DNA of 64,000 bases from Verrucomicrobiia bacterium. Its GTDB lineage: Bacteria > Verrucomicrobiota > Verrucomicrobiia > Limisphaerales > JAEYXS01. The translations under genes were made by a program, and so were the position numbers. Of the stretch, positions 10,690 to 61,975 are shown one piece after another. The notes beneath the pieces are model-generated. The model searched no databases, had not been told where the DNA came from, and worked only from the letters and a program-made list of their open reading frames with translations. The stretch spans positions 62,001 to 126,000 of the forward strand of contig DASWYF010000002.1 in the NCBI GenBank assembly GCA_036405135.1, read 5' to 3'. The first letter of the stretch is position 1, and each line of letters starts with the position of its first letter.

Positions 10690-13600
10690 ATGACAAAGCC
10701 GGGAAATCAATCCAGTCTGAGCCTGTCTTACACCCGGATCAGTGCTTTGCTGGTGATCATACTTGGTGGCGGGGTGTTTTTTGGGTGGCTGCTCCAGAGC
10801 ATAACCATGGTGGCAGTGGTGGCGGGGTTCACTCCGATGCAGCCGAACACAGCGGTTTGTTTCGTCGTGGCCGGAGCGGCGATTCTGGCGGCAGGCAAGG
10901 AGAGGATGCGGTGGACATTGTGGCTGGGGGCAGCTATCGCAATGGTGGGGCTGGCCACCTTGCTTCAATATACGTATGGAGGAAATTTCGGCATCGATCA
11001 GTTCCTGATCAAACCGTTCTATGTGGAGAGGAGTGCGTTTCCCGGACGGATGTCGATGCTCACCTCCATCTGTTTTTTTCTCGCTGGGCTCTCCCTGGTC
11101 ATAAAAGCCAGCAGCCAGCAAAATCCCCGGCTGAGAATAATGCTGGCGATCTGCAACAGTTGTGTGCTTGGGATCGCATCGACCGCCTTTTTTTCTTATC
11201 AGCTTGATGTGGAGGGGTTGCAGGGCTGGCGACGGCAGATCGGGCAGATGGCTTTGCACACATCGATCGGTTTCCTGCTTCTGAGCACGGGAATTTTTTC
11301 TTTGGCCTGGCATCGCACCAAGCAGGAGCAGACGGGCTTGCCGAGCTGGCTGCCATTTCCCGTTGGCATCGGTGCGCTCGCCGCCACGCTGTATGTCTAT
11401 CTGATGGTGTTGTCCTCCCAACAGATGCAGACGGAGCGGAGCACGGCGCTGCAACTGGAGAACCTCCGCGTGCTGCTCCATCATTCCATCGATGAGCGCA
11501 TGGGGGCGCTGAACCGGATGGCCAGGCGCTGGGAGGCGGCCGGAGGGATCGCCGAGGCTGAGTGGGAGAAGGATGCAGCCAATTATGTAGGTGATCTGCC
11601 CGGATTTCAGGCGGTGCAATGGATTGATGCAAGTATGGTGGTGCGGCGGTGTGTGCCGGTGAAGGGAAATGAATCGGTTATCGGATTGAATCTGGGCGAA
11701 AATCCGGCACGTCTGGCAATTTACGAACGTTCGCGGCAGCAGGGCCGGCTTACGTTCACCCCGGCGATCAACCTGATCCAGGGCGGAAGGGGCTTTCTTG
11801 TCCATGTCCCTTTGATGGTGAATGGCCAACCGGATGGCTTCATCGTGGGGGTGTTTCGTTCCCAAGATTTTTTGTCCAGCGTGATCCGGCCGGAACTGGT
11901 GCGGGATCATTCTTTGTTTGTCTATGATGGGGACAAGGAGCTGTATCGTTCACAAAAGGAGAATTTTGGCCCCGGACGTTCACTGGCCAAGCAGGCGAAA
12001 CTGAAACTGCCGGGGTCGGAATGGGACATGGTGCTGGAACCGCTCCGGGTGGACACAGAATCCAAGATGTCCGAATTGGTGCAGTGGATTGGTGCGGGGA
12101 TCGCCTTGCTGCTTTCCGGCATGACCTGGCTGGCGCAGACTGCTTACCGGCGCACAGGCGAGCTGCAAAAGGGTAATGAGCAGCTTTCTGCCGAAGTGCT
12201 GGAACGACGCCGGGTGGAGGAAGAATTGCGCCGGTTGGGCATCTCGCAAAGGGCAGTCCTGGGCAGTGCCAATTATTCGGTCATCTCCACCACCATGGAC
12301 GGGACCATCACCTCCTTCAATGCCGCCGCCGAGAGGATGCTCGGATATGCGGCCGAGGAAGTGGTCGGAAAGGTGAGTCCGGCCATCATTCATCTGGAAG
12401 AGGAAGTGGTGGCGCGGGCGGGGGAACTGGAGAAGGAACTGGGCCGGAAAATCGAGCCGGGATTTGATGTCTTCGTGGCCAAGGCGCGCATGGGGCAAAC
12501 TGAAGAGAGGGAGTGGACGTATGTGCGCAAGGACGGAAGCCGGTTTCCCGTGCTGCTTTCCGTTACCGCCATCCGGGATGAACGGCACGGCACCGTCGGT
12601 TTTCTGGGCATCGCCAGCGACATCACCGAGCGCAAGGAGTCGGAGGAGAAGCTGGCAGATGAAAAGGCGCGCCTTTTCGCTTTCATCGAGCATGCACCGG
12701 CGGCGGTGGCGATGTTTGACCGTGAGATGAGATACATCGCCGCGAGCCGCCGCTGGTTCGTGGATTACGGGCTGAGCGGCCAGTCCATCCTCGGCCGCAG
12801 TCACTACGAGGTGTTCCCCAATGTCGGAGAGAACTGGAAAGATATCCACCGTCATTGTTTGGCGGGGGCGATCGAGCGGAAGGATGATGACGTTTGGCGG
12901 CCACCGGGTTGGGACCATGACCAGCACCTGCGCTGGGAGGTGCGTCCGTGGTTTGATGGCGCTGGTAAAATCGGCGGGGTCATGATGTTCACGCAAGACA
13001 TCACAGCGGATCGCATGCGCGAGCAGGAGCTGGGGCGGATGCGGGATGCGGCGGATGCGGCGAACCAGGCGAAGAGCGAGTTCCTCGCGAATATGAGCCA
13101 TGAAGTGCGCACCCCGATGAACGGTGTCATCGGTATGACCGGACTTCTGCTGGATACACCGCTAACGCTGGAGCAGCGGAATTATGCGGAGACGATCCAG
13201 TTCAGTGCGGAGTCATTGCTGACGGTGATCAATGACATCCTGGATTTCTCGAAGATCGAGGCGGGCAAGCTGGTGTTCGAGACGCTCGATTTCAATCTGC
13301 AGGAGACGGTGGAGGAATCGCTGGAGATTCTGGCGCAACGGGCGCAATCCAAAGGCATCGAACTGGTCGGCTGGCTGGCACCGGAAGTGCCGGTGAATTT
13401 GCGCGGTGATCCGGGGCGCATACGGCAGGTGCTGAACAATCTCTTGAGTAATGCGGTGAAGTTCACTGAGCGGGGTGAAGTGGTGATGAATGTGCGGCTC
13501 ACGAGTGAGACGCAGGATCACGCGGTTCTGCGCTTCGAGGTGAAGGACAGCGGCATCGGCATCTCAGAGGAAGCGCAGAGGCGTTTGTTCCAGGCGTTCT

Positions 13601-15006
13601 CGCAAGCGGACGGTTCGACAACGCGCAAATACGGTGGCACCGGCTTGGGGCTGGCGATCAGCCGGCAATTGGTTGAATTGATGAATGGCGAGATCGGCGT
13701 AACGAGCGAGCCGGGGAAAGGTTCCACGTTCTGGTTCACTGCACGGTTGGAAAAGCAGCAGCAGACCGCGATAAAACTCGTGCCAGTGACATCTCTTATT
13801 CAAGCGGGTGACCGCGTGCTTATTGCGGTGACCAACCCGGCGAACCGCGAGTTTCTGCACAATCAACTGCTGGCGTGGAAGATGAATTCCGTGGCAGTGG
13901 GTACGGGAGAAGAGGCGCTGAAGGCGATACGTGAGAGCTTGCGGAAAGAAGGCCGGTTCAAACTGGCGGTGCTGGATCAAAAGCTGCCGGGCATTGACGG
14001 GGTGGCACTGGCCAGGATCATCCGACAGGAGATCGGTCGTGACGGGCTCAAACTGGTTTTGCTGGAATCTGGAACGGAAGCCGTCAGGCCGCAGGAGATC
14101 GTGGAAGCCGGGATCGACGGCGCTTTACAGAAACCGCTGACGCAGTCACGTATGCTGGATTGTTTTATGACTGTGAGTGCGCAGGCGATGAACCCGCGTT
14201 CGCTCGCGATGGTGCCGGTGGAGGCGGTAGAGACTGTGAGCAACCAGCCGAAGAGAAAGATCAAGATACTGCTGGCAGAGGACAATGCGGTGAACCAGAA
14301 AGTGACGCTGGGACAACTGCGCAAGCTGGGATGCCAGGCGGATTGTGTGGGTAATGGTCTGGAAGTGCTGCAGGCGTTGGAAGTGGTGCCGTATGAGATC
14401 GTGCTGATGGACTGCCAGATGCCGGAGATGGACGGCTTTGCAGCATCGCGCGAGATCCGGCATCGGGGATTGAATGTGCATATCATCGCGTTGACGGCGA
14501 ATGCGATGCAGGGCGATCGTGAGCGTTGCCTGGCGGCGGGGATGAGCGATTACATCACCAAACCGATGAAGCTGGAGGATCTCAAGGCGGCGATCGACCG
14601 CTGGGCTGATCTGCGGCCGCGCAAGGTGACGGGAGACACGGAGACATCACCGACGACCACGGCCGTGTTCAACCTGGAGATATTGCGGACGGCTACCTCA
14701 GACGATCTGGACCTGACGAGCGATCTGGTGGCGGTTTATTTCGATGATGTGGAAAAGACGCTGCCGTTGCTGGAAGCGGCGTGTAAATCGCGAAAGCTGC
14801 CGGAGGTGAATAAGCTGTCACACCGGTTGCGTGGTTCCAGTGCCACCATGGGTTTGGACCGTGTGGCCAAGGTGCTGGAAAAGATCGAGATGAAATCGGA
14901 GACTGGAGCGGTGGAGGCGTTAATGCCGTTGATGGAGGAATTGCGGCGGCAGATGTCTCTGGCGAAGACGGCGCTGGAGAAGCATGTGGAGGGGTTGAAG
15001 AGGTAG
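10690..15006 (+). CDS. Hybrid sensor histidine kinase (MASE-like, CHASE, 2 PAS, HisKA, HATPase, 2 REC, Hpt)
   Basis: A 1438-residue inner membrane phosphorelay protein. Order: about seven membrane helices (residues 10-245), a CHASE-type extracytoplasmic sensor (about 255-420), another helix (about 455-480), two PAS domains (about 515-645 and 660-780), HisKA with His802 in [12 protein letters not shown], HATPase_c ([25 protein letters not shown]), two receivers (about 1040-1155 and 1190-1305) and a C-terminal Hpt with [13 protein letters not shown] (His about 1378). The second receiver is complete (LLAEDNA, LMDCQMP, TKPM). The first lacks the acidic pair ([11 protein letters not shown]) although it keeps an Asp in AVLDQKLPG, so it may be a pseudo-receiver. 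The DsrE-like trio and CheY-like gene lie just upstream. Confidence 0.93.
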
Positions 15007-23951: not shown

Positions 23952-25232
23952 TCAGATTTCTTTCCAGGAGGTGACGATGAAGCCGCGGTGGAGGTTGATG
24001 CGTCCGAGGTTTTCATCGTAGTGGAAGTTGACGTTACCGTTCATCTGGACGGTCTTGGTGACGCTGGCTCCGGTCATGTTTTCGAGGGTGCTGTTGCCGC
24101 CGCCGTTCATAGTATAGCTGGCGTGGGGGGCGTAGATGACGCCGGTGAAGGCGCCGTTGCCATTGATGGTGAGGGTGGTGTTGGCGGGTGTACCCCAGTA
24201 GAAGAAATTGGTGGCATTGCCGGAGTGGTTGACGACGCCGTTGCCGGTGATTTTTGCGCTGGGGCCGGCCATGTAGAGGTTGAGTGAGGCGCCTTTTTGG
24301 ATGGTGATGGTGTCCTGGCCCGTCATGTTGATTTCGGTGTCAATGATGAGGCGGGCTTGCACGTTGCTTTTGACGAGGAGGTTGCCGGTGAGGCTGGGGA
24401 TGCGGTAGTCACCGCTGGAGCTGATGACGTATTGGTAGCCGGTGGCATTGCCAGGGGTGAAGCCGCCGCTGAAGGGGGGGGAGACATCGGGAAAGGCCAC
24501 GTTCATGTCGTCGGAGAAGTAACCGGGCTGGATGCCGCTGGAACCGGAGGCCTGCCAGGCGAGGTCTCCCACGGCGCCGTTGTTGCCAATGCCGACCGAG
24601 CCGCCGGGACCAGTGGAGACGTGTCCGTATATGTTGGCGTTTCCGGCAGCGAGGGCATTGACGAGGCCGGAGTTGGTAGCGACATCTCCGTTGGCTTTGC
24701 GTTTGCTGGGGGTGTAGAGGCCGTTGGTGCTGTAGTTGGGGTCTTGGGAGTCGAAGCTATCCACGTTGATCTGGTTGCCGTTGAGAGTGATTTGTCCTTT
24801 GGCGACCATGCCTTTGGAGAATATGCCGTCACGGCGTGTTTCCACTTTTATTGTGCGCCGGATGTAATCACCGTTCAGAGGCGCTTTCATATAAGCGGTG
24901 GAGTAGATGACGGGTGTGAGGCCGTTGGAGATCACGACGAGTGCGGAGCCGCTGCCGACCGTGCGCCATTTGAGGCAGCCGTTTTGGGACGGATACCAGC
25001 TGTTGGAGGTGAGGTTGGTGCCCTTGGTCTGGTGCAGGTGTGCCAGCGCCTCTTCCACGCCCGCTTCCACCACAGGGATGCAGGTGTTCCATGTCTGTGA
25101 ACGCGCGATGGACTGGTGCTGCGCGCTGACGAGATCAAGATATGCGGCCAGCATGAAGCCGATCACGAGGCTCACCATGAGCACGCCGATGACCACGAAG
25201 CCCGGGCGGCGGTTATGTAGGCGGATGATCAT
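23952..25232 (-). CDS. PilX-like pseudopilin/adhesin with beta-solenoid C-terminus, set A
   Basis: A 426-residue protein. A short basic leader (MIIRLHNRRPGFVVIG) runs into a hydrophobic helix (VLMVSLVIGFMLAAYLDLVSAQ), as in minor pilins though without the usual Glu5. RSQTWNTCIPVVEAGVEEALAHL follows and is nearly shared with the set B protein at 34259. The rest is Gly/Asn/Thr-rich and beta-predicted, ending with repeated GNG units (ITGNGVVNHSG, INGNGAFTGVIYAPHA) and NVNFHYDENLG. The C-terminal pattern resembles small solenoid domains of PilX-like and cell-surface proteins. It is 30 bases after the prepilin gene at 25263 and probably co-transcribed. Exported surface role inferred. Confidence 0.65.
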   Translation of the reverse strand: MIIRLHNRRPGFVVIGVLMVSLVIGFMLAAYLDLVSAQHQSIARSQTWNTCIPVVEAGVEEALAHLHQTKGTNLTSNSWYPSQNGCLKWRTVGSGSALVVISNGLTPVIYSTAYMKAPLNGDYIRRTIKVETRRDGIFSKGMVAKGQITLNGNQINVDSFDSQDPNYSTNGLYTPSKRKANGDVATNSGLVNALAAGNANIYGHVSTGPGGSVGIGNNGAVGDLAWQASGSSGIQPGYFSDDMNVAFPDVSPPFSGGFTPGNATGYQYVISSSGDYRIPSLTGNLLVKSNVQARLIIDTEINMTGQDTITIQKGASLNLYMAGPSAKITGNGVVNHSGNATNFFYWGTPANTTLTINGNGAFTGVIYAPHASYTMNGGGNSTLENMTGASVTKTVQMNGNVNFHYDENLGRINLHRGFIVTSWKEI

Positions 25233-25262
25233 GCGTGTCTCTTTCCTTTGGCGATGCTGGGG

Positions 25263-25718
25263 TCAGTAGATGTAGTTTTGTAGTCCATGGCGGGAGATCA
25301 TGGTTTTCATCTCCCGTTTGTGAGTGATGTTGCCGGAGTTCCAACTCAGGTTGACTGTCACCTGGCGCATGTCAGCGCTGTAACTTTCATTGAAAGTAAC
25401 ATTTGTAATGGTGAGTGTGCCATTGTATTGCAATCCTTGATTGCCATCTGCAGGCCAGAATGGCGCGGTGAAAGTCGCGGGCACGAAGCCGGTTTGCGTG
25501 ATCTGGTCCCAGCTATAAAGCCGGATCGTTTCCATCTTCTCCAGCATCACTTGTGTGGCACGCAAGTTTTCGCGCGCTGAACGGATGATGGCCATGCCGG
25601 AACTGATGCCTGCATAAAGCGAGACGAACAGGATGCCGAAGACAGCCATCCCGATGAGGGTTTCAATCAATGTCATCGCCGCCTGTCGGGGAGCGAATGA
25701 TTTCAGTGTCAGTTTCAT
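25263..25718 (-). CDS. Prepilin-type (PilV/GspI-like) protein, set A
   Basis: A 151-residue type IV prepilin-like protein (Met at 25718; an upstream Met at 25724 is possible). The class III-like cleavage site is AAMTLIETLIGMAVFGILFVSLYAG, with Glu5 after the cleaved Ala/Met. SARENLRATQVMLEKMETIRLYSWDQIT is almost identical to the set B homologue (33211). The C-terminal half is a beta-sheet pilin head. It is the first gene of a two-gene set with the PilX-like gene; a PilW-like gene is absent here but present in set B. It would be cleaved by a PilD peptidase encoded elsewhere. Confidence 0.85.
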   Translation of the reverse strand: MKLTLKSFAPRQAAMTLIETLIGMAVFGILFVSLYAGISSGMAIIRSARENLRATQVMLEKMETIRLYSWDQITQTGFVPATFTAPFWPADGNQGLQYNGTLTITNVTFNESYSADMRQVTVNLSWNSGNITHKREMKTMISRHGLQNYIY

Positions 25719-26049
25719 AGGCAATCAGGAGCTCTGAGCACCTGTGCCCACATGTTAAGCAAAGGGCCTGCCAAGGATGCATTCTGCCACTGCAAATCTC
25801 CAATTGTGAGCTATTCCGCCATTGATAGGTCTGTATGGGTCTATAGTTGATGATATATAAGAACTTATCTGTGTGCCCATGCGGCTATAGTTGCTTGTAA
25901 CATGGTCGAAAGACACCGCATTGTAAGGGCAATTTTTGCTTGCTGTCCTGTCCATTGCTCTTGGTGTGTGTCTTGTTTCTGAGCACTCACTTTTTTATTT
26001 GGTTTCCTCTTTTCAGACGGGCATCTCTTCCTACATTTGTTTGGTCCAG
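25719..26049. promoter_or_regulatory. Divergent intergenic region with a 15-base direct repeat
   Basis: No gene seen between the divergent pseudopilin set A and the GYF_2 gene. The motif ATGnGnCTATAGTTG occurs at 25835-25849 and again at 25879-25893, 44 bases apart, about four helical turns, which fits a pair of regulator binding sites. The region is AT-rich (TGATATATAAGAAC at 25850-25863) and so a likely promoter area. No factor can be assigned. Confidence 0.4.
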
Positions 26050-26694
26050 ATGGAACCGCAGCGTGAAGAGTATTTTCTACTGGTTAACGGCGAGACCGCC
26101 GGGCCTTATACTTTGGCTGAGCTGCATGAAATGTGGATGTCGGACAAGATCACGCTCGATACGCTGTTTGTGAGGCCGGGGATGAAGAAATGCCAGCCGA
26201 TCAATCTTATCTTGGGCATGGTGATCAATTACCAGACGGCTACGGCCAAGCCTGCGCCGACGGAGATTGCCATTGAAGAGGAGAGCGCTCTTGCTCCGCT
26301 AAAAGGTGTTTTCCGTTGGGGAATCACGGTCGCTATCATGTGTGTATTCATCTGGGTAATTGGCCCTTGGCGCTACCGTGGCGAAGAACAGACCCAAGTC
26401 ATGCGTGCGATCATCGAAGTGAAACCGGCGGACATCCGTATCATCAATGAGAGTGATTTCGAGTGGAATCAGATGTTTGTATATCTGAATGGCACCCCTC
26501 CGTCGGGATTTAAACGGCTGCTGGGCAATCTTAAGCCTGGCCAGCAAAAGGACTTGATCCTGCTGGAGTTCAATGATTCAGGCGGCGCTCCATTTGAGCC
26601 GTGGCGGATGACTGTGAGTGATGTCTGGATCGGCAATGAGAAAAACGGTTACCGTACTTTTCGTATCCGGCAGCCACTTCCTGTTCAACCTTAA
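26050..26694 (+). CDS. GYF_2-domain membrane protein
   Basis: A 214-residue protein taken from the ATG at 26050 (MEPQREEYFLLVNGETAGPY); the open frame begins 38 codons earlier without similarity. The first 55 residues form a GYF_2-like domain: FLLVNGETAGPYTLAELHEMW, then ITLDTLFVRPGMKKCQPI. One membrane helix follows (GVFRWGITVAIMCVFIWVIGPW), then a C-terminal domain of about 100 residues predicted to be outside (VKPADIRIINESDFEWNQMFVYLNG). GYF_2 domains bind proline-rich or other peptides in bacterial membrane proteins; the partner is unknown. It leads the plus-strand series of genes up to set B. Confidence 0.72.
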   Translation: MEPQREEYFLLVNGETAGPYTLAELHEMWMSDKITLDTLFVRPGMKKCQPINLILGMVINYQTATAKPAPTEIAIEEESALAPLKGVFRWGITVAIMCVFIWVIGPWRYRGEEQTQVMRAIIEVKPADIRIINESDFEWNQMFVYLNGTPPSGFKRLLGNLKPGQQKDLILLEFNDSGGAPFEPWRMTVSDVWIGNEKNGYRTFRIRQPLPVQP

Positions 26695-26825
26695 CAAAAG
26701 GTGTTTAACGCATTTGCGGCCGACAACAAATGGCCGATTATACTGTCGGTCTGGTATTATTCTTTATCTGATTGCCAGGTTTACAAATGGTCTGCAATCT
26801 GCTGAATATCAGGCAACTGACCAGT

Positions 26826-27440
26826 ATGTTGTCCAACTGCAAACGAGCCATTAGAAGCATAATATCGCAACTCCCTGGTGGGGCTGGCGTCTGTGCTTTC
26901 ACCTTGTTTGTGCTGTGCCCGTTCATCCACACGGCGGAAGCTCAGGAGGCTTCCACCAACGCACCTTCCCTCAAGTCCGTTCAGCTTCAAAGCAATGGAA
27001 ATGGCAACGGGAACGACAACGGTAACAACGGTAAGGCCAAAGGTAAGAGCAAACCTACCGTCGCCGAGCGGCCTCAAGTGATCGGTGCCAAAAGCAGCTC
27101 CTCGTCCAGCAGCAAAGGCAAGCCAGAACGCCCCGGCAATCCTGGCAATGCTGAGCCTGCGGAAGTGACCACGCTGGTGAACAAATTTCAGACCGCACGC
27201 GAGGAATTCCTGGCTGCCCAAAAAGAACTGAATCTTAAGAAAAGTGAAGCCACAGAAGCACAGCGAGCGATGATCCGTGAGAAGTCGCGCGAAGCTCTGG
27301 AAAAATGGAAGGAAGAGCGCAAGCAGTTTGCTGAAGAGGCGAAGGAACGGGCCAAAGACATCAAACAGGAACTGCACCCTGATTTGGGTAAGATTGTGGA
27401 CGGTGCCGGCGGAGATGGAGGCAATGGGCGGGACCGCTGA
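26826..27440 (+). CDS. Exported Asn/Gly-rich coiled-coil protein
   Basis: A 204-residue protein from the ATG at 26826; Mets at 26772 and 26787 are alternatives. GGAGVCAFTLFVLCPFIHTAEAQ is a signal peptide. Then comes a low-complexity part (NGNGNGNDNGNNGKAKGKSK), a Ser run, and a long charged helix (residues about 110-185: TLVNKFQTAREEFLAAQKELNLKKSEA, REKSREALEKWKEERKQF) predicted as coiled coil. No family recognised. It ends 15 bases before the beta-barrel gene, so the two likely form an operon. A periplasmic bridging or scaffold role is only a guess. Confidence 0.6.
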   Translation: MLSNCKRAIRSIISQLPGGAGVCAFTLFVLCPFIHTAEAQEASTNAPSLKSVQLQSNGNGNGNDNGNNGKAKGKSKPTVAERPQVIGAKSSSSSSSKGKPERPGNPGNAEPAEVTTLVNKFQTAREEFLAAQKELNLKKSEATEAQRAMIREKSREALEKWKEERKQFAEEAKERAKDIKQELHPDLGKIVDGAGGDGGNGRDR

Positions 27441-27455
27441 CCGTCCACTGAAGCA

Positions 27456-28607
27456 ATGAAGGTAGATGCACCATGCCGTGTGCTTCAGGATTTCGGATGT
27501 TCGTCCTTCCCTGTCCTGTTGGCGATCATGCTTTTTACCCCGGCAACCGAATCTCTGGCGCAGGACGATCTAGAAATGAAAGAACCCTCCAATTGGAGCC
27601 ATTTCATCGATGTGCGACTGGAGTCCGGCTATCGGGACAACCCGACATACACATCTTCCAATCCATCGGGCACAACCTTTGGCACCATCAAGCTGGATCA
27701 TACCCTGATCCGTCTGCCGGTCGATGCCTGGCAAGTCACCGTTCTCACTACTGTTGATGCGACCCGACTTTTTGACAGCGACCTGGCCAAGCACGAACTC
27801 TTCACCTTTGGCCTGTTCCAACTGCAAAAAGAATCTGCGCCCGGCCGCTCTTGGGAGGCGGGACTGCAACACATCTACCAAGATCAGACGATAGATGCTT
27901 CGACAACGATCCTGAACCAAGGCTCGGTCAATATCCATGGCCATACGCTGCAAGGCTATGGCCGCTGGAAACAGCAATGGGTCACTGGCTGGTGGATCGC
28001 ACTCAAGCCCATGCTTGAGTGGCAGACTGTCGAGCAACCGTTGGACGATTCTTATGAACCGGGCATCTCATTTTCTTTGGGGCAGGATGCCAGCAAGCGC
28101 ACTTCCTATTCGCTCACCTACGATTATCAGGAACGGGTGTTCGACCGCATGACACCCACAGATGAATTTGGCATCGCTGTCCTTGGGGATGAATTACGCT
28201 TTCGCCAGCACCATGTAGAGGCCTCCGCACGCTGGGAATTGGATGAAGCGAAAGTCTGGCGGTTGACGGCGCGTGCGGGTTGGCGGCGTATCACGGACAA
28301 CGGCCAAGATTACTTTGACCATGACCGGGGCCGAATGGCTCTAGAGTTGCGGTTTCGGCGAAAACATTGGGAAATAAAGCTTTCTAGCCGTGCTTCTTAT
28401 TATGATTATGACATCCAGAAAATCGCTGGAGCAGGCAGTAATGAGCGCGAAAAGTTATTGCTGCTCACCGGACTGCAAGCGAAGCGGAATTTTAACAATG
28501 GCTGTTATCTGATTTTGCGGGGAGAGCATGAGCAATCACTCTCCAATCTGACAACCGATCGCTACGTGGCCAATACGGCCAGCATCGGTATTGGCTGGGA
28601 AAACTGA
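27456..28607 (+). CDS. Outer-membrane beta-barrel protein, hypothetical
   Basis: A 383-residue protein with a signal peptide ending near SLAQ (PVLLAIMLFTPATESLAQ). The mature protein consists of many alternating 10-residue amphipathic strands with aromatic belts, for example FIDVRLESGYRDNPTY, HTLQGYGRWKQQWVTGWWIALKP, LRFRQHHVEASARW and LELRFRRKHWEIKLSSRASYYDYD, and ends with ASIGIGWEN. I read this as about 16 strands of an outer-membrane porin-like barrel. No named family is recognised. It follows the coiled-coil gene and precedes the histidine kinase by 36 bases. Confidence 0.68.
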   Translation: MKVDAPCRVLQDFGCSSFPVLLAIMLFTPATESLAQDDLEMKEPSNWSHFIDVRLESGYRDNPTYTSSNPSGTTFGTIKLDHTLIRLPVDAWQVTVLTTVDATRLFDSDLAKHELFTFGLFQLQKESAPGRSWEAGLQHIYQDQTIDASTTILNQGSVNIHGHTLQGYGRWKQQWVTGWWIALKPMLEWQTVEQPLDDSYEPGISFSLGQDASKRTSYSLTYDYQERVFDRMTPTDEFGIAVLGDELRFRQHHVEASARWELDEAKVWRLTARAGWRRITDNGQDYFDHDRGRMALELRFRRKHWEIKLSSRASYYDYDIQKIAGAGSNEREKLLLLTGLQAKRNFNNGCYLILRGEHEQSLSNLTTDRYVANTASIGIGWEN

Positions 28608-28643
28608 ACTGCGGTTTGAACATTTAAAAGAAATCGGCACGGC

Positions 28644-30107
28644 ATGCCTTCTGTGTCGCCAAATAAAAGCGGAAAAAATTTAACGGGGCTTGGGTCAACC
28701 AACTGGTTGCCCTTCGCTTCCGTATTGCTCGCTTTGACATTGCTCGCCGGTGCCATTGCAGCGGGTGCATTCGGACTCCGTGCCAAACTTCGGGAAGAGT
28801 CCGTCAACCGGGACGGTGAAGTGATCGGTGCGGTCACGATGATGCAATATCTGGCCGAACAATACAATGATCCCGAGGCCACGCTGGACAAGACGGAAAC
28901 GCAGTTCACCGTGCTGCTCAAAGCCTCCTTTCTCCAAGGCGTCATGGGCGCACGCCTCTTCGATGCCAAAGGAAACTTCGTCACCTCTTTTCCCCAAAAT
29001 GTGAAGGAGCTCCGCATCGACAAGGACGAAGTCGCCCAACTGCGCAGCGGCAGCATCGTTTCCGGCGAACTCCAGTCCGTCTCCGCCTTCCATCCCGACC
29101 GCAAACTCGCTGACGATTTCCTGATCGACCCGCGCGAAGCGGGCAAGGCCGCTCCGGTGCTCATCGTGACCGTTCCGCTTCACAAAAAAGGGGAGCTGCA
29201 ATTATTTGGCGTGGCCCAGATGATCATTGATGGCACGCCCAAGGCCTTGGAATTTGCCGAGATCGACCGCAGCCTTGCCGCCCGTGCGGCTTCGCTTTTC
29301 TTGATCTGCGGCGCCCTCATGACGGCGACGCTGTGGTGGGCCTTCGCCCGACTCGCCCGTGCCAATGCCGAACTGGCCGCCCGTTCGGAGAGCCTGCTCA
29401 AAGCGAATCAGGAACTCGCCATGATGGCGCGTACCTCCGCCGTCGGTGCCGTCGCCGCCAATCTCATGCACGGCCTCAAAAGCCCTCTCTTCGGACTCAT
29501 CAATCTCTTCGCCGCATGGCGTGCGGCCGATACGACCGGCGAAAAAGTGGAATGGCATACTGCGGTGGACACCGCCCGGCGCATGCAAGCCATGGTCAAC
29601 GGGGTGATGGATTTCGTGCGCGATCAGGAAGGCCTGAGCAATCACGAAGTCACGATGAAGGAGATGCTTCAGGCCATTGGTGACAAAGTCACACCACTTG
29701 CCGCGCAGAACGACGTGCGGTTCGATTATCAAGGAGAAGTGAACACCGTGCTCGCCGCGCGAGTCAGTAATCTGCTGACCATGATCCTGATCAACCTGAT
29801 CCAAAACGCGATCGAGGCCACACCTTCCGGCAAGCAGGTGCGGCTCTCCGTGCGGCAGTCCGCCCAAGAGATCGAGTTTGAAGTGGCTGATGAAGGCGGC
29901 GGACTCCGTCCGGAATTGGAGCGCCAGCTCTTCCAGCCCTGTGAATCGTCAAAAGAAGGTGGCAGCGGTTTGGGGCTCGCCATCTGCAAACAATTGGCCC
30001 GTCACCTCGGTGCCGATCTGAACCTCCGGCAGAACACCTCGAAAGGCTGTGTTTTCGGCTTGGTCCTGCCCCCCGAATTATCCGCTGCAAGCACCGGCGA
30101 AACATAG
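28644..30107 (+). CDS. Sensor histidine kinase
   Basis: A 487-residue inner membrane kinase. One helix (about residues 20-45: LPFASVLLALTLLAGAIAAGAFGL), an extracytoplasmic sensor of about 165 residues, and a second helix (about 215-238). No HAMP domain is obvious. The phosphoacceptor is His276 in NLMHGLKSPLFG, an unusual HGLKSPL H-box. The ATPase shows NLIQNAIEATPSG, VADEGGGLRPE and GSGLGLAICKQL. It is 20 bases from the YCF48-like gene and within one gene of the response regulator at 32377, its likely partner (inference from order). Confidence 0.88.
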   Translation: MPSVSPNKSGKNLTGLGSTNWLPFASVLLALTLLAGAIAAGAFGLRAKLREESVNRDGEVIGAVTMMQYLAEQYNDPEATLDKTETQFTVLLKASFLQGVMGARLFDAKGNFVTSFPQNVKELRIDKDEVAQLRSGSIVSGELQSVSAFHPDRKLADDFLIDPREAGKAAPVLIVTVPLHKKGELQLFGVAQMIIDGTPKALEFAEIDRSLAARAASLFLICGALMTATLWWAFARLARANAELAARSESLLKANQELAMMARTSAVGAVAANLMHGLKSPLFGLINLFAAWRAADTTGEKVEWHTAVDTARRMQAMVNGVMDFVRDQEGLSNHEVTMKEMLQAIGDKVTPLAAQNDVRFDYQGEVNTVLAARVSNLLTMILINLIQNAIEATPSGKQVRLSVRQSAQEIEFEVADEGGGLRPELERQLFQPCESSKEGGSGLGLAICKQLARHLGADLNLRQNTSKGCVFGLVLPPELSAASTGET

Positions 30108-30127
30108 TAGATTTACCAGTTGTAGAC

Positions 30128-32251
30128 GTGGCAGCAGATACAAAGCGCGATGGAATAAGCCCCCGGCTTCCAGATTCAAGAGCCGGTTGGCTGCCCTTTT
30201 TGCTGGCCATATGCCTCTGGCTGACTGGCCTTTCCAATACCGCCGCCCAGACCTCCTGGCGCTGGAGCAATCCCCAGCCTCATGGTGCCAACGTCGTGGA
30301 CATGACCGAGAAGCTCGGCGTAAAAATCCAAGTCGGTGAATCCGGCCAGCTCTTCGCCTCAGATGACCTGACACTCTGGCAAGCCAAGTCCACGGGTGTC
30401 ACCAATTCTTTGCGTAGTGCCACTTTCTTCGGCGAACGGCTGCTTGTCACTGCAGAGAAGGGGCTCATTCTTTACGCAGATTCTTTGGAAGAATTCACCC
30501 AAGTGAATTTGGGGACATCAGATTGGCTCGAAGCGATCACCGTCTCCAATCAACGCGCTGTGGCCGTGGGAGACAATGGCGCGATATACGTCAGCATCGA
30601 CGGCGCTTCGTGGGCACGTGAAAGCCTGAGAGGCGCAGGCAGCACCACCTGGCTGCGGGGCGTGGCAAGCAGCGGTAGCGGCTTTGTGACTGTGGGTGAA
30701 AATGGCTACATCGCGACTGGGAACAATGCCGCAAATACTTGGACCAGAGTCACCACCGCATACACGGTGCATCTGAACCGCGTTGCTTACATCAACAGCA
30801 AATACTGGGTGGTTGGCAACAGTGGCCACATTCTTTCCAGCACTGATGGTTCCTCATGGAACAAGGCTAGCGTCACCGTCACGAACAACCTCTTCGCCAT
30901 CGCCGGCACCAATTCCACCATCCTCGTCGCCGGCGACCAGATCGCCCTGCTCAGTGAAGACGGTGGCACCACTTGGAAAACTCAGACGACCGTACCGGAT
31001 GCCGTCCAGCCCGCGCCCAAGTGGACATACTATTCCGCGCTCTACACGGACGGCATCTTCCTCCTCGGCGGGCGGAGCGGTATGACCGTGGAGGGGTTCA
31101 AAACCAACGCGACTGATCAGATCTGGGTGGAACGCAACGATTCTCAACGCCAATGGTTATGGTCCGCACACCGTCTCGCTGATTTCTATCTCGCCGTTGG
31201 TGATCACGCCACGATCCTCACCAGCAGTCGCGGAGTGAACTGGGATCTCGAACTCACCCCGGATGCCGCGACAAACTCCATCCTGCTCGGAGTCGGCGGA
31301 ACGACGAATGGCGCCGTGATCGTCGGTAACAAAGGCACCATTCTCTTCAGCCCCACCAACTATGTCTCTGTGCTCTATACGAACAAGGACAACAGCATCA
31401 CGAGCAACTACCTCTCCACCATCGGCACCTTATGGCATGCAGTGACACCTGCACCCGTCAGCGTCGATCTGCAAGGTGTCGCCTGCAAGAACGGTCTCTA
31501 CGTCGTGTCCGGTGGCAACGGTACGGTCCTCACCAGCAATGACGGCACCAATTGGACTTCACGAACGACACCAACAAGTGCTTTTCTCTCCAGCATCGCC
31601 ACGAATTCCTCGCTCTTCGTCGCCGCCGGAAATCTTGGCACCATTCTCACCAGCCCCGACGGCATCAGCTGGACGCTGCGCAACTCTTCCACCGCCAAGT
31701 GGCTCTTTCGCGTGAAACAGTTTGACGGCACATTTGTGGTCGTGGGTGAAAACGGTACGATACTCACCAGTCCTGACGGCACGAACTGGACTCCTCGCAC
31801 CAGTGGTGTCACCAACTGGTTGAATGATGTGGAAAAGGTGAACGGAGAATATTTCGTGGCCGGCAACCAGGGAACCGTTCTGCGCAGCTCGAACCTCACC
31901 ACTTGGACACCCATGAGCACACCCACCAAAAAATCTCTCTTCACCCTCGCATCGGCGGCCGGTCAACTCATTGCCGGAGGAGTCGAGGGGGCATTGCTCC
32001 GTCTGCAACTTACGCCTGATACCACGCCGGTCTCGTTCGTTGATTATGGCAAGGTTTTAAACCAGAGCCTCGTCCTCATCTCTGGAGGCACCGATCAAAA
32101 ATTCGCGCTCGAGACCAGCACCAACCTGGTGGATTGGGTCGAAGGCGTGACGTTTGAAATCGTGGACCGCTCCGGCACCTTGCTCATAAAACAGTCTATC
32201 GACACCAATACGGTCCCTCGTGAATTCTACCGTGCCCGCATGGCTCCCTGA
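30128..32251 (+). CDS. Secreted YCF48/BNR-repeat beta-propeller protein
   Basis: A 707-residue protein with a GTG start (30128), since no earlier ATG precedes the signal peptide (LPFLLAICLWLTGLSNTAAQTS). It has at least ten repeats of about 40-50 residues with a shared core, for example VVVGENGTILTSPDGTNWTPRTSGVTNWL, VVSGGNGTVLTSNDGTNWTSR and VAAGNLGTILTSPDGISWTLR. These are YCF48/BNR-like blades, which form beta-propellers. The last 110 residues form a separate beta domain typical of Verrucomicrobia autotransport-like or immunoglobulin-like tails (FALETSTNLVDWVEG). It sits between the histidine kinase and the response regulator, suggesting a ligand-sensing partner (inference). Confidence 0.85.
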   Translation: MAADTKRDGISPRLPDSRAGWLPFLLAICLWLTGLSNTAAQTSWRWSNPQPHGANVVDMTEKLGVKIQVGESGQLFASDDLTLWQAKSTGVTNSLRSATFFGERLLVTAEKGLILYADSLEEFTQVNLGTSDWLEAITVSNQRAVAVGDNGAIYVSIDGASWARESLRGAGSTTWLRGVASSGSGFVTVGENGYIATGNNAANTWTRVTTAYTVHLNRVAYINSKYWVVGNSGHILSSTDGSSWNKASVTVTNNLFAIAGTNSTILVAGDQIALLSEDGGTTWKTQTTVPDAVQPAPKWTYYSALYTDGIFLLGGRSGMTVEGFKTNATDQIWVERNDSQRQWLWSAHRLADFYLAVGDHATILTSSRGVNWDLELTPDAATNSILLGVGGTTNGAVIVGNKGTILFSPTNYVSVLYTNKDNSITSNYLSTIGTLWHAVTPAPVSVDLQGVACKNGLYVVSGGNGTVLTSNDGTNWTSRTTPTSAFLSSIATNSSLFVAAGNLGTILTSPDGISWTLRNSSTAKWLFRVKQFDGTFVVVGENGTILTSPDGTNWTPRTSGVTNWLNDVEKVNGEYFVAGNQGTVLRSSNLTTWTPMSTPTKKSLFTLASAAGQLIAGGVEGALLRLQLTPDTTPVSFVDYGKVLNQSLVLISGGTDQKFALETSTNLVDWVEGVTFEIVDRSGTLLIKQSIDTNTVPREFYRARMAP

Positions 32252-32376
32252 TGTCCGGCCTCTGTATTATCAGGTGGAATTATATTCGTAATTCCACGAA
32301 AATATTGTCATCCTTAGCGGAAGGCAGTTGCATTTTATTGCCGGATGTTATTTTCTCCCGCCATCAATCCTTAAAC

Positions 32377-33039
32377 ATGACCATGCAAACCGGCAAATCT
32401 ACAGTGCGAGTTTTGATCGCTGACGACCATCAAGTGGTGAGAGTGGGCCTGCGGGCAATGTTCGCGCGATTCCCCGAGATTGAGGTCGTGGGTGTGGCTG
32501 AAAATGGCAACCAGGCAGTGCTGGAAGCCCAACGCCTCCGCCCGGACGTCGTGCTGCTTGACGTGCGGATGACAGATGGCAACTCCTTCGATGCCTGCCG
32601 CAAAATCCTCGCCAACACCGAGGCGACGCATGTGATTTTCCTCACCTCCTTCGCAGACGACAATACCGTTTTCGACGCTATTTCCGCAGGTGCGGACGGT
32701 TATTTGCTGAAAGACGTGGCAGAGGAAGAACTCGTCCGGGCCATCACCCAGGTGGCCGGGGGACACTCCATTCTCGATCCTTCCGTCACCCGTCGCGTCT
32801 TGGGCCGCGTCAAAGCCGGAGCCGAAAGCCAGGGGCAGGGCGGCTTGGACATCCTCTCGGCTCAAGAGCGCCGCGTCCTTGCACTTGTAGCGGAAGGCAA
32901 GACCAACAAGGAAATCGCCCAGGTCATGGGCCTGAGTGACAAGACGGTGAAGAACTACCTCAGCAACCTCCTCGACAAGCTGAACCTCTCCCGCCGCTCC
33001 CAAGCGGCGGCATTCTACGTTCAGCATTCTATTAAATAG
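32377..33039 (+). CDS. NarL/LuxR-type response regulator
   Basis: A 220-residue transcription factor. The start at 32377 (MTMQTGKSTVRVLIADDHQVV) is preferred; the frame is open 42 codons earlier. The receiver has IADDHQVVR, the phosphoacceptor Asp in VVLLDVRMTDGNSF and Lys in GYLLKDV. The LuxR/GerE helix-turn-helix is LSAQERRVLALVAEGKTNKEIAQVMGLSDKTVKNYLSNLLDKL. It binds promoter DNA when phosphorylated. The gene follows the propeller by 125 bases and precedes the set B pseudopilin genes, so those genes or set A are plausible targets (inference). Confidence 0.92.
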   Translation: MTMQTGKSTVRVLIADDHQVVRVGLRAMFARFPEIEVVGVAENGNQAVLEAQRLRPDVVLLDVRMTDGNSFDACRKILANTEATHVIFLTSFADDNTVFDAISAGADGYLLKDVAEEELVRAITQVAGGHSILDPSVTRRVLGRVKAGAESQGQGGLDILSAQERRVLALVAEGKTNKEIAQVMGLSDKTVKNYLSNLLDKLNLSRRSQAAAFYVQHSIK

Positions 33040-33046
33040 GGATATA

Positions 33047-33068
33047 AGGCCCTATATAATTAGGGCCT
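33047..33068 (+). terminator. Possible terminator after the response regulator
   Basis: AGGCCCTA (33047-33054) pairs with TAGGGCCT (33061-33068) around TATAAT. AT-rich sequence follows, but no T run, so termination is uncertain. Confidence 0.45.
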
Positions 33069-33121
33069 AATAATTATCCTTTCGGCACTATTTTAACCCG
33101 TGCCGTTTCCGGTAATCTCAA

Positions 33122-33156
33122 GGTTATAGAGTGGCATTGCCACTGCTATTATAACC
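33122..33156. promoter_or_regulatory. Two-tier stem-loop upstream of pseudopilin set B
   Basis: GGTTATA (33122-33128) pairs with TATAACC (33150-33156), and inside it AGTGGCA (33130-33136) pairs with TGCCACT (33138-33144). A palindrome CGCAAATTTGCG follows at 33161-33172. It lies 55 bases before the prepilin start at 33211, so it is a candidate operator or RNA leader for set B. Confidence 0.45.
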
Positions 33157-33210
33157 ATTGCGCAAATTTGCGTGAATGGATGCAGGTTTTCATCTCTACC
33201 ATTCGCAACC

Positions 33211-33723
33211 ATGAGATTTCCTAGGACCAGAAACAGGCTGCGCCTGAGAACCGGGGCATTTACCATCGTCGAGGTGCTGATCTCGATGGCCGTGGTGGCC
33301 TTGATGTTCGTCTCCCTCTATGCGGGCATCTCTCAAGGCCTGGCTGTGATCTCCAGCGCTCGTGAGAACATGCGGGCGACGCAAATCATGATCGAGAAGA
33401 TCGAGCTGCTCCGGCTCTATTCATGGGATCAGATCACGGACACCAGCTACGTTCCCAAATACTTTGCCGAGCGCCTTATGCCAGCCAACTCCACCAATGC
33501 TGCAAGCAGCTCAACCAATGAGGCCACACTCACCATACCTGCAGGGGCTGGAACGGTTTTCGTCGGTTCGATCGTGTTCGCGGATGCTCCCGTGAATTCG
33601 GCTTATTCCGCCAATATGCGGCTGGCCACGCTCACGGTCACGTGGACCAACGCGAACATCCTGCGCACCCGCAGCATGCAAACCCTCGTCGCCGAACGCG
33701 GCATCCACGACTATGTTTATTGA
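33211..33723 (+). CDS. Prepilin-type (PilV/GspI-like) protein, set B
   Basis: A 170-residue type IV prepilin-like protein from the ATG at 33211 (MRFPRTRNRLRLRTGAFTIVEVLISMAVVALMFVSLYAG). FTIVEVL is the cleavage site with Glu5. SARENMRATQIMIEKIELLRLYSWDQITDT matches the set A protein at 25263 closely. The head domain is Ser/Ala/Asn-rich with beta-strands. It overlaps the next gene by 11 bases, which supports coupling in an operon of three. Confidence 0.85.
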   Translation: MRFPRTRNRLRLRTGAFTIVEVLISMAVVALMFVSLYAGISQGLAVISSARENMRATQIMIEKIELLRLYSWDQITDTSYVPKYFAERLMPANSTNAASSSTNEATLTIPAGAGTVFVGSIVFADAPVNSAYSANMRLATLTVTWTNANILRTRSMQTLVAERGIHDYVY

Positions 33724-34252
33724 TTTCAAAAAACGCCGTCGCCAGCTCGGTGTGACGCTGATGGAGATGATGGTTGCCGTAGGTGTTGGCAGCGTCGTTC
33801 TGGCCGCGGTGGCGTCACTCTCCTTTTACACCGCGCGCAGCATGGCGGCCATGTCCAACTACGCGGATCTTGACCGTCAAAGCCGCAATGCTTTGGATCA
33901 GATGACGCTGAAAATACGTTCCGCCTCCCGGCTTACTTCCTTCTCGGCCACCAGCGTCAGCTTTCTCTACAATGGCCAGACGCTCACGTACAGCTATTCC
34001 GCGAGCACCAAACGACTTACTGAAACATTGGGCAGTTCGTCTAGTGTCCTCCTGGAAGACTGCAATTCTCTTCAGTTCAGCATGTTTCAACGGAACGTGA
34101 TGAACGGAACGTTCAACCAGTACACGACCACCAGCATCACCGAGGCAAAGTCCATCATCGTGACGTGGACGTGCGCGCGTTCTTTGCTGGGCAATTTGAT
34201 CAACTCGGAGAGCGTGCAGTCAGCGCGCATCGTCATCCGGAACAACCCCTAA
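33713..34252 (+). CDS. Prepilin-type (PilW/GspJ-like) protein
   Basis: A 179-residue prepilin-like protein. KRRRQLGVTLMEMMVAVGVGSVVLAAVASLSFYTAR shows a basic leader, the Gly-Val-Thr-Leu-Met-Glu cleavage site and the hydrophobic helix. A helical stalk (DLDRQSRNALDQMTLKIRSA) and a beta-rich head follow, as in PilW/GspJ minor pilins. The start ATG at 33713 lies inside the end of the preceding gene. It has no counterpart in set A. Six bases separate it from the PilX-like gene. Confidence 0.82.
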   Translation: MFIDFKKRRRQLGVTLMEMMVAVGVGSVVLAAVASLSFYTARSMAAMSNYADLDRQSRNALDQMTLKIRSASRLTSFSATSVSFLYNGQTLTYSYSASTKRLTETLGSSSSVLLEDCNSLQFSMFQRNVMNGTFNQYTTTSITEAKSIIVTWTCARSLLGNLINSESVQSARIVIRNNP

Positions 34253-34258
34253 GTCGTT

Positions 34259-35872
34259 ATGATTATCAGGCATTCATCCCGCGAGCGAGGCAGCATGCTT
34301 ATCATCACAGTAGTGATCTCGGGCATCATCGGCCTCACGTTGGCTTCCTATCTCACGATGGTGCAGTCCCAGCACCTCAACGTGATGCGTTCCCAGACAT
34401 GGAATGCAGCGATTCCTGCCTGCGAATCCGGTATAGAAGAAGCGCTTGCGCATCTGAACAGCATCGGTGACGGAGATCGCGCGGCCAACGGATGGGTGCT
34501 GAACAGCGGCACCTACAACCTGACCAACATCGTCGGGGACATGCGATATGAGGTCAACATCAGCGGTGCCAATCCGCCCGTGGTGACATCCTACGGTTAC
34601 ATTCCGGCGCCTCTGGGCAAGGGCGAAGTTACCCGGGCCGTCCGTGTGACCACCACACGTGAGACCACCGGCATGAAAGGCTTGGTGGCGAAAGGCTCGA
34701 TCACATTGGGGCCGGGCAGCGTCGTGGACAGTTACGACTCCCGCATCACGTTCACCTACAATGCGGCCACAGCGAATGCGAACGCGTTTGTTGGGGCCGT
34801 AGGTGGCAACATCTCGGGCGGCAGCATCATCAAGGGTGACGTCGCCACAGGTCCCGGTTACACGATTTCTTCCCCGCACACCGGCAGTTCGGCCAATGAC
34901 CTCAGCATGTCCTTCCCCCCCGTGGCTCCTCCATTCAGCGGCGGGTTCAGCCCGGGCGGCGGCTCGGTGACCGTTACCAATTTTTCCGTCTCCAGTCTCA
35001 CCATCACCACCAACGTTCTGCCGGCCACCTTTCCAGCCAGCGGCGTGATCACCAACACCGGCAACTTTACGAACACAGTACCGCCGGCATCGGGCTCCTA
35101 TACCACGCAAACCGCAAGCACTAACACAACGAGCTGGCCCGGTGCTGGTGCTGGAACCATCACGACGAACACGACTGCAGTCACCGGCGCAAAAACCTAT
35201 CCGGCAGCAGGCACTTTCCTTGGTTCGGTGACGACCACCACATCACCCACCCGCTACCACTACAACCGCATCGACAGCTACACCTACAATATCACCCGTT
35301 ACGTGTACAGCACGACCACTTACACCTACTCGACATCCTCCACCAATGCCGTCAGCACCAGCACAGCCACTTACGAGTATGTGCTCGACAGTGAGAACTA
35401 CAAGACGACCTCCATCAGCATGAGCGGCAGCAAGGAAATACTGGTCCGGGGCAATGCCGTGCTCTGGTGTACAGAAGGCATCAGCCTTCAAGGTAATGCC
35501 CGCATCACCATTCTGCCGGGTGCCAGCCTCAAGCTCTACATCGGCGATGGCTCCGGTTCGGGTGCGGAAGCCAAGATTGCTGGCAATGGCGTATTCAATC
35601 AATCTGGCGACACGGAGAAGATGACCATCTTCGGTCTGGATGATTGCACTGTCGTGAAACTCGCAGGTAACGGTGCCTATGTAGGCACCGTATATGCACC
35701 CAATGCCAACCTGCAGGGCAAAGGTGGCGGCAGTGATACGGATGATTTCCAGGGAGCAGCCATCGTCGGCTCCGTCACCTACAACGGCCACTTCAACTTC
35801 CATTACGATGAGAAGCTGGGCGACAACGGTGGTATGACTCAATGGAAAATCGCTTCCTGGACTGAGTTCTAA
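34259..35872 (+). CDS. PilX-like pseudopilin/adhesin with beta-solenoid C-terminus, set B
   Basis: A 537-residue paralogue of the protein at 23952. The N-terminus ERGSMLIITVVISGIIGLTLASYLTMVQSQH is a membrane helix, followed by MRSQTWNAAIPACESGIEEALAHL, shared with set A. Residues about 160-360 are very rich in Thr, Ser and Asn, with a Tyr/Thr-rich stretch (YTYNITRYVYSTTTYTYSTSS). The C-terminal 150 residues carry glycine-rich solenoid units (IAGNGVFNQSG, LAGNGAYVGTVYAPNA) and end in FNFHYDEKLGDNG, like the paralogue. The extra length is in the Thr-rich middle. It ends the pseudopilin set; surface display is inferred. Confidence 0.65.
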   Translation: MIIRHSSRERGSMLIITVVISGIIGLTLASYLTMVQSQHLNVMRSQTWNAAIPACESGIEEALAHLNSIGDGDRAANGWVLNSGTYNLTNIVGDMRYEVNISGANPPVVTSYGYIPAPLGKGEVTRAVRVTTTRETTGMKGLVAKGSITLGPGSVVDSYDSRITFTYNAATANANAFVGAVGGNISGGSIIKGDVATGPGYTISSPHTGSSANDLSMSFPPVAPPFSGGFSPGGGSVTVTNFSVSSLTITTNVLPATFPASGVITNTGNFTNTVPPASGSYTTQTASTNTTSWPGAGAGTITTNTTAVTGAKTYPAAGTFLGSVTTTTSPTRYHYNRIDSYTYNITRYVYSTTTYTYSTSSTNAVSTSTATYEYVLDSENYKTTSISMSGSKEILVRGNAVLWCTEGISLQGNARITILPGASLKLYIGDGSGSGAEAKIAGNGVFNQSGDTEKMTIFGLDDCTVVKLAGNGAYVGTVYAPNANLQGKGGGSDTDDFQGAAIVGSVTYNGHFNFHYDEKLGDNGGMTQWKIASWTEF

Positions 35873-36035: not shown

Positions 36036-36111
36036 GGGGTCGTAGCTCAGTTGGTAGAGCGTCTCGTTCGCAATGAGAAGGTCAGGAGTTCAAGCCTCCT
36101 CGGCTCCACCA
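36036..36111 (+). tRNA. tRNA-Ala (anticodon CGC)
   Basis: The 76-base sequence folds as a tRNA. The acceptor arm is GGGGTCG with CGGCTCC (two G-U pairs), the D arm GCTC-AGTTGGTA-GAGC, the anticodon stem TCTCG/TGAGA (one G-T pair) with loop TTCGCAA, hence anticodon CGC, and the T arm AGGAG-TTCAAGC-CTCCT. The discriminator A and CCA end are encoded (36108-36111). It reads GCG alanine codons. No integrase or attachment duplication is seen beside it. Confidence 0.96.
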
Positions 36112-46941: not shown

Positions 46942-47937
46942 TTAATCCTTGGCCAGGATTGACCACATGCCGCGCTGCACAGTGGCGTTCATCGCGTTCG
47001 TCGTTGTTTTTTGCGGCAGCAAAAACTCCGCATGCCCGTCCGCAAACGCGTAGTTGAAACCATCGCTGTGATGAACTGCCAACGTCTGATTATAGTCGGT
47101 GATGCCGGTGATGGCGGTCACACCATCAGGCCGATAACCGATGTGCGAGCGCATGCCGCTGCCCACGAATGGCACATCGATCCAGGCGATCCAGTTGCCC
47201 ACCAGCTGTTCGGTGAGATGGGTTCTTTCTGTCGTCCGGATGGTTTCTGCGGGAGCTTGCAACAAACCGGTGCGCACTGCGGGTAAACGGCTGTATTTGA
47301 AGTTGGGCAAGGTCACATTCGCGACGATATCAATACCATTGGGATCTTTGCCGCCGTGTTTGCCCCAAGGCATCGAGCGGCTCGAAGAGAAGGAATACAC
47401 GATCCCCATGCCGGTTTGAACGCTTGAAGAAACCGTTGTGTTGATGGGGGAGCCGCCGTTGATGGCTGAGGTAGAGGCATCCAAACGATAGCGCGGCATC
47501 GCGTAGCTGCGCCGCACTTCACTATTGGCCGGGGCCGGATAGTAACGATCCGAGGGACAGGTGAAAACCCCTCGTGGCGTCATGATTGTGGTCGGCTTTC
47601 CGCCAATGATCGTGGCCGAAGCGGATGAGAGATCGCCACCGAGGTATTTGAACAGCAGTTTATCCCACGAGTTGTAAGGCGAGTCGCCTTCCAATGCCAT
47701 CGAGGCATACTCCACTTTTTCGGAGTTGTCGGCGGTGTACATGCCCCCCGCCAGACCGATCTGTTTCAGGCTGGATAGGCATTTGGTGGATTGCGCCTTG
47801 GCTTTGGCGTTTGCCAGTGCTGGCAATAACATACCGGCGAGGATTGCGATGATCGCGATCACGACCAGCAGTTCAATGAGCGTGAAGGCCAAACTTTCCG
47901 GGTGTCTGGTTCCCTGATGCTGATGGGTTGTTTTCAT
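46942..47937 (-). CDS. Type II secretion/prepilin-like protein with H-X9-DG motif
   Basis: A 331-residue protein. The leader and cleavage region is [34 protein letters not shown], with Phe-Thr-Leu-Ile-Glu at the prepilin peptidase site. [22 protein letters not shown] at the C-terminus is the H-X9-DG motif that defines the expanded DUF1559-type pilin-like family of Verrucomicrobia and Planctomycetes. The mature head is about 290 residues, larger than true pilins. Members are numerous per genome and have unknown surface roles. It follows the lipoprotein gene by 33 bases, so the two form an operon. Confidence 0.88.
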
Positions 47938-61873: not shown

Positions 61874-61975
61874 ACCAGAGTGCTAACAAGGGTTCGATGT
61901 GGAAGGTAAACCCAAACCCTTTTTTGTCACGGGAGCATAAGCCGGATTCTCAACCCCTACTTTTGGAGGGGGTGG

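Follow-up and report, generated by a model that had tools for sequence, protein, structure and literature searches.

A locus in the genome of an uncultured Verrucomicrobiota bacterium of the order Limisphaerales raises the question if pilin genes and a two-component module lying side by side constitute one system or two. The window, i.e. the whole stretch of DNA that was analysed, comprises 64,000 nucleotides and corresponds to positions 62001-126000 of a 396-kb contig (C2) in a 5.8-Mb genome of 52 contigs. Two pilin sets, A and B, bracket genes for a GYF_2 domain protein (GYF2), a coiled-coil protein (COIL), an outer-membrane β-barrel (BARREL), a sensor histidine kinase (HK), a YCF48-like protein and a LuxR-type response regulator (RR). 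ORF and Pfam analyses found all genes named in an initial annotation in place, 26050 and 32377 being the likely starts of GYF2 and RR, respectively. Set B is directly followed by a tRNA-Ala (CGC) gene (36036-36111, plus strand), a possible integration or boundary point, and the gene at 10690-15006 (plus strand) codes for a large hybrid kinase that combines CHASE, PAS, receiver and Hpt domains.

The two pilin sets are paralogous and resemble tip cassettes

Set A, on the minus strand, consists of PilX-A (23952-25232) and PilV-A (25263-25718), and set B, on the plus strand, of PilV-B (33211-33723), PilW-B (33713-34252) and PilX-B (34259-35872). Pairwise comparison gave 43% identity between PilV-A and PilV-B over 155 aa (E = 1e-48), and PilX-A and PilX-B align in two stretches (33% and 38% identity, E = 1e-29 and 4e-26) that contain the RSQTWN..IP..E.G.EEALAHL segment and the NFHYDE-LG end highlighted in the initial annotation. 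The sets are thus paralogous, as had been proposed, but they are not equal, since set A holds only PilV and PilX and the sole PilW is found in set B.

PilV-A and PilW-B are PilV/GspI-like and PilW/GspJ-like prepilins, respectively, both with Glu5 and with N_methyl matches above the cut-off (6.3e-6 and 2e-6); the N_methyl match of PilV-B is below it, and the pilins score below the cut-offs of the named PilV or GspI/GspH equivalog models. The minor pilins begin with the cleavage motif and the hydrophobic helix typical of prepilins, recognisable in PilX by a long N-terminal helix and the motif only. PilX-A, a PilX/GspK-like pilin without Glu5, carries a large, β-rich C-terminal head that matches Pfam DUF7305 (7.9e-20), and the same head is found in PilX-B (2.8e-14), both matches being above the cut-off; our search found no paper on DUF7305. 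In the AlphaFold2 model of PilX-A (pLDDT 88) residues 11-69 form the N-terminal helix and the remainder is mostly β-structure, with weak structural matches only of the head to ice-binding β-solenoids (E = 0.017).

PilX is the last and largest subunit of each set, with 426 and 537 aa as compared to 153-183 aa for the others. Of 34 named loci, almost all of them from Verrucomicrobiota, about 25 show the order PilV-PilW-PilX, and the cassette is widespread in the Limisphaerales, often with one orthologous NarL/LuxR regulator just upstream. Glu5 is absent from all 35 PilX proteins with a call and present in most PilV and PilW proteins. Judged by these features, PilV-PilW-PilX with a DUF7305 head looks like a tip cassette of the GspI-J-K/PilVWX type. 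The genome also encodes a second B unit with the order coil-RR-PilV-PilW-PilX (L017) and an orphan A-type PilX (L016). Such orphans, which have no adjoining PilV or PilW but each their own sigma-54-like site, lie at 8944-10221 of L016 and 1015-2292 of L041.

Assembly genes in the window and elsewhere in the genome

The remark in the initial annotation that neither a pilus motor nor PilQ is nearby holds for the secretin, as none was found on the 396-kb contig, but an assembly-type ATPase is encoded 21 kb downstream (57194-58411, minus strand; T2SSE, E = 8e-101). Its best NCBIfam matches are GspE, followed by PilB, both below the cut-off. Genes for secretins, additional motors, a prepilin peptidase and a single RpoN are located on other parts of the genome. 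The idea of a simple pilus operon is rejected, since the search of the contig yielded no secretin and that of the locus no platform gene; the pilins look like tip pilins with a machine encoded elsewhere. The window further contains a gene for a prepilin-type protein with an N_methyl and a weak DUF1559 match (46942-47937, minus strand) and one for a CBM_4_9/β-helix protein (58571-63909, minus strand), next to which a second regulator of the NarL type and a HisKA_3 kinase are encoded.

The resemblance to GspI-J-K, including the last member without Glu5, and the preference of this orphan ATPase for GspE would also be expected if the pilins were the pseudopilus tip of a type II secretion system that exports enzymes, with the module regulating secretion rather than an adhesive pilus. 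We regard this as unlikely, for PilX is large and varies from about 425 to almost 900 aa across the family, which is unlike a constant secretion tip, and several cassettes can occur within one genome.

Four of the middle genes belong to a conserved operon

All genes between the pilin sets lie on the plus strand. GYF2 (26050-26694, start inferred) comprises a GYF_2 domain (Pfam, 6.1e-10), a transmembrane segment and a C-terminal domain. It is followed by COIL (26823-27440, start inferred), an exported coiled-coil protein identified by neighbourhood conservation as the product of the leading gene of the module, and by BARREL (27456-28607), which family search and a structure model with 16 strands (pLDDT 90) identify as an outer-membrane β-barrel. 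Next come HK (28644-30107), conserved after BARREL, with HATPase_c above (3.9e-20) and HisKA below the respective cut-off, and an exported YCF48/BNR-like protein (30128-32251; DUF6242, 2.4e-9), conserved after HK. RR (32377-33039; Response_reg, 2.6e-24; GerE, 5.1e-19) is a NarL/LuxR-type regulator, so that kinase domains and a receiver-plus-LuxR regulator are both present at the locus; tree and genome search identify it as an orthologue of the regulator upstream of PilV-PilW-PilX elsewhere. COIL was considered as a ZraP/CpxP-like regulator and rejected, there being no supporting Pfam match and coiled-coil noise only. Foldseek returned generic channels of the 16-strand type for BARREL (AlgE, porins, BcsC), which is not decisive for its identity.

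The order-wide comparison set comprised 146 genomes, 62 of which encode BARREL, usually in one copy, and 84 do not. COIL, BARREL, HK and YCF48 keep their order in about 25 of 57 neighbourhoods, and in 19 of the 57 they are preceded by a gene for an NtrC regulator, many of the others being cut by contig ends in both counts. NtrC regulator, coil, barrel, kinase and YCF48 protein are encoded in a conserved operon. The NtrC regulators of the module (e.g. L062:2283-3758) read GAFTDA in place of GAFTGA, the canonical sigma-54 contact loop (alignment consensus).

The module lacks its NtrC regulator and adjoins a pilin-linked NarL regulator

An orthologue of the module NtrC is found in 51 of the 62 barrel genomes and in none of the 84 others (Fisher p = 7e-29). 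It was not found in the genus of the window, where several other NtrC-type proteins are encoded in the genome: scores amount to 822-845 bits in the tested NtrC-type genomes versus at most 391 bits in own-genus and NarL-type genomes. The closest match (G000 C20:33658, 391 bits) was rejected as the module NtrC, being a paralogue with unrelated neighbours. In the window and in L020, the locus of the nearest relative, the NtrC gene is absent and the NarL regulator follows YCF48, with PilV-PilW-PilX coming next.

The tree places the NarL regulators located after YCF48 and those before PilV-PilW-PilX in a single orthologous family. For 16 of the 33 copies of this regulator, a DUF7305 gene is located at most 8 kb away (0.0024 expected per copy), demonstrating that the linkage of regulator and pilins is conserved. 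With orthologues defined as matches of at least 264 bits, a cut-off set after the scores were seen, and genome sets taken from result tables, the regulator co-occurs with DUF7305 across genomes (p = 3e-5) and is anticorrelated with NtrC within barrel genomes (p = 0.0013), p-values that, like the others given here, overstate the evidence because genomes share ancestry and tests were picked after the data had been seen. A NarL orthologue is present in nine of nine well-sampled NtrC-less barrel genomes; G050 and G140, further NtrC-less genomes with barrel fragments only, are outside these nine. Pilin genes near the barrel occur in four of six NarL-type loci, the own genus being counted once, and in one of 31 NtrC-type loci (p = 0.001), units that are not fully independent because L058 and L055/L076 share one family. 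Other lineages with such neighbouring pilin genes are represented by L058, L067, L072 and L030, the NarL gene of L067 lying about 8 kb away from the module. Two changes are required to explain the positions of the NarL-type kinases in the HK tree; like the distance in L067 and the degenerate COIL site of the window described below, this speaks against an exchange of regulators.

The search for the same order in relatives had a split outcome: L020 shares the genes from GYF2 to PilX-B, but the module normally stands alone with an NtrC regulator. Moreover, across the order barrel and DUF7305 are found in the same genomes no more often than expected by chance (Fisher p = 0.40). This independence is the strongest counter-fact and indicates that the link between module and pilins is lineage-specific. 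A single ancestral operon for all genes is rejected on the same two grounds. Of the regulated surface pseudopilus or adhesin system that the initial annotation had proposed, the recurrence of the gene order in the nearest relative and the conserved NarL-pilin linkage are retained, but not descent from one operon.

Both facts would also fit mere adjacency, where kinase and regulator run a barrel/propeller operon, e.g. for a porin or an exporter, and the pilins obey another sigma-54 activator; porins and exporters of exopolysaccharide, AlgE for example, are indeed among the fold matches of BARREL. Arguments against this explanation, which we consider somewhat unlikely, are the orthology of the NarL regulator, its linkage to pilins and the fact that none of the nine well-sampled NtrC-less barrel genomes lacks it, as well as the pilin genes near the barrel in four other lineages.

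Sigma-54 sites precede the leading genes of both units

Pattern scans identified sigma-54 -24/-12 sites upstream of set A (TGGCAGGCCCTTTGCT, 25758-25773, minus strand) and set B (TGGCATTGCCACTGCT, 33132-33147, plus strand), and a degenerate sigma-54-like site before COIL (TGGTCTGCAATCTGCT, 26788-26803, plus strand), which is retained in L020. Upstream scans of the relatives gave good sites at the correct spacing for 34 of 44 pilV genes (30 of 40 after removal of duplicate loci) and 40 of 50 coil genes, a few of the accepted pilV sites, possibly by chance, lying farther upstream than expected. Shifted spacings gave 0-7 sites, barrel 3/56 and NtrC 0/31, and HK and YCF48 were near background. Both pilin sets of the window match the pattern exactly; genome-wide it has only 35 occurrences, as compared to 19 for the reversed-pattern control, and it also precedes glnII-like and flagellar (flg) genes. 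NarL-linked cassettes show no clear loss of the site, 7 of 11 keeping one. With one RpoN in the genome and sites at fixed spacing before the leading genes, it is likely that a sigma-54 regulon ties both order-wide units together.

NarL regulators lack the AAA+ domain that sigma-54 sites require. Consequently, a LuxR-type regulator alone is insufficient for both pilin sets, and the control of both by the regulator at 32377, as seen in the initial annotation, is not supported in the form of simple activation. The same argument would suit a NarL regulator acting on sigma-70 promoters within the middle operon, e.g. its own, with pilins that are expressed constitutively or respond to an unrelated activator, and palindromes do occur upstream of RR and just past its stop. 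One of the palindromes in this region (AGGCCCTATATAATTAGGGCCT, 33047-33068), a candidate operator, enhancer or hairpin, lies about 64 bp before the set B site and is retained in L020 via compensatory changes. Control confined to sigma-70 promoters nevertheless appears unlikely given the linkage and co-occurrence of NarL regulator and pilins across the order.

Discussion

The locus joins two separately conserved Limisphaerales units. Gene order, orthology, the absence of NtrC, the NarL-pilin linkage, sigma-54-like sites and predicted folds, all computed, suggest that this lineage lost the original sigma-54 activator of the module and that the module was joined to the regulator associated with the tip genes. 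Our main reading, with a probability of about one half, is that the sensing module was re-wired, the pilin-linked NarL regulator taking the place of NtrC, and that a regulated tip or adhesin locus resulted.

In the proposed mechanism PilV and PilW, with Glu5, and PilX, with its β-solenoid-like head and without Glu5, would assemble into a tip resembling GspI-J-K, which a motor, platform and secretin encoded elsewhere would extrude and which would display the PilX head outside the cell; the structure might be a pseudopilus, a pilus tip or an adhesin. The second unit would be a cell-envelope sensing module that acts through a dedicated NtrC-type, sigma-54-activating regulator in most relatives, and in this genus and some other lineages, where NtrC is gone, the kinase would be paired with the NarL regulator of the tip cassette. 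Barrel, coil and kinase would read an envelope or surface signal and relay it, presumably by phosphotransfer, to this pilin-associated regulator. Together with a sigma-54 activator this would lead to production of both pilin sets from their common type of sigma-54 promoter as a regulated adhesin or attachment tip. More tentatively, and with a probability below even, the locus might represent an undescribed trans-envelope surface sensor of Limisphaerales, in which barrel, exported coil and propeller feed a kinase that controls sigma-54-dependent tip adhesins and whose output regulator changed from NtrC to NarL in the course of evolution, which brought the sensor genes and the tip genes into one locus.

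This order of Verrucomicrobiota is common in environmental samples, but its surface biology has been little studied. The analysis defines two order-wide gene units, neither of which we found described in the literature searched. If true, the exchange would be a natural case of one sensor kinase switching between AAA+ (NtrC) and NarL outputs that can be tested biochemically across relatives.

Several known systems show parallels. The pseudopilus tip GspI-J-K of type II secretion likewise has a three-pilin order with a large last member lacking Glu5, but the cassettes described here carry a DUF7305 head, match the GspI model far below its cut-off and have no adjacent secretion core. The Verru_Chthon cassette (TIGR02598, TIGR02599) is likewise a verrucomicrobial prepilin cassette; membership is rejected as PilV-B and PilW-B reach only about 16 bits, the cut-offs being 51 and 256. 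PrsK-PrsR of XrtA/PEP-CTERM systems, an RpoN-linked pair of histidine kinase and sigma-54-activating regulator of envelope proteins, resembles the canonical NtrC module, and here, too, membership is rejected (TIGR02916, HK, 79 versus 300 bits; TIGR02915, NtrC, about 300 versus 503 bits). A two-component system whose activator is of the sigma-54 type also governs pilin genes in Pseudomonas aeruginosa, where PilS-PilR controls pilA (PMC6058289), and in commensal Neisseria, where RpoN/Npa controls pilE (PMC6528607). However, these systems target the major pilin and not tip-type cassettes, and the dedicated NtrC regulator in our case is part of the barrel/propeller module, and this lineage lacks it. 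Finally, the tip-type minor-pilin operon with PilY1 is also two-component-controlled and its PilY1 places a β-propeller in the tip, to which the YCF48-like gene beside the cassette is a loose analogy; the present locus differs in having the two-component genes within the cluster, a NarL-type regulator, the DUF7305 head, sigma-54 sites before the pilins, and additional barrel and coil genes.
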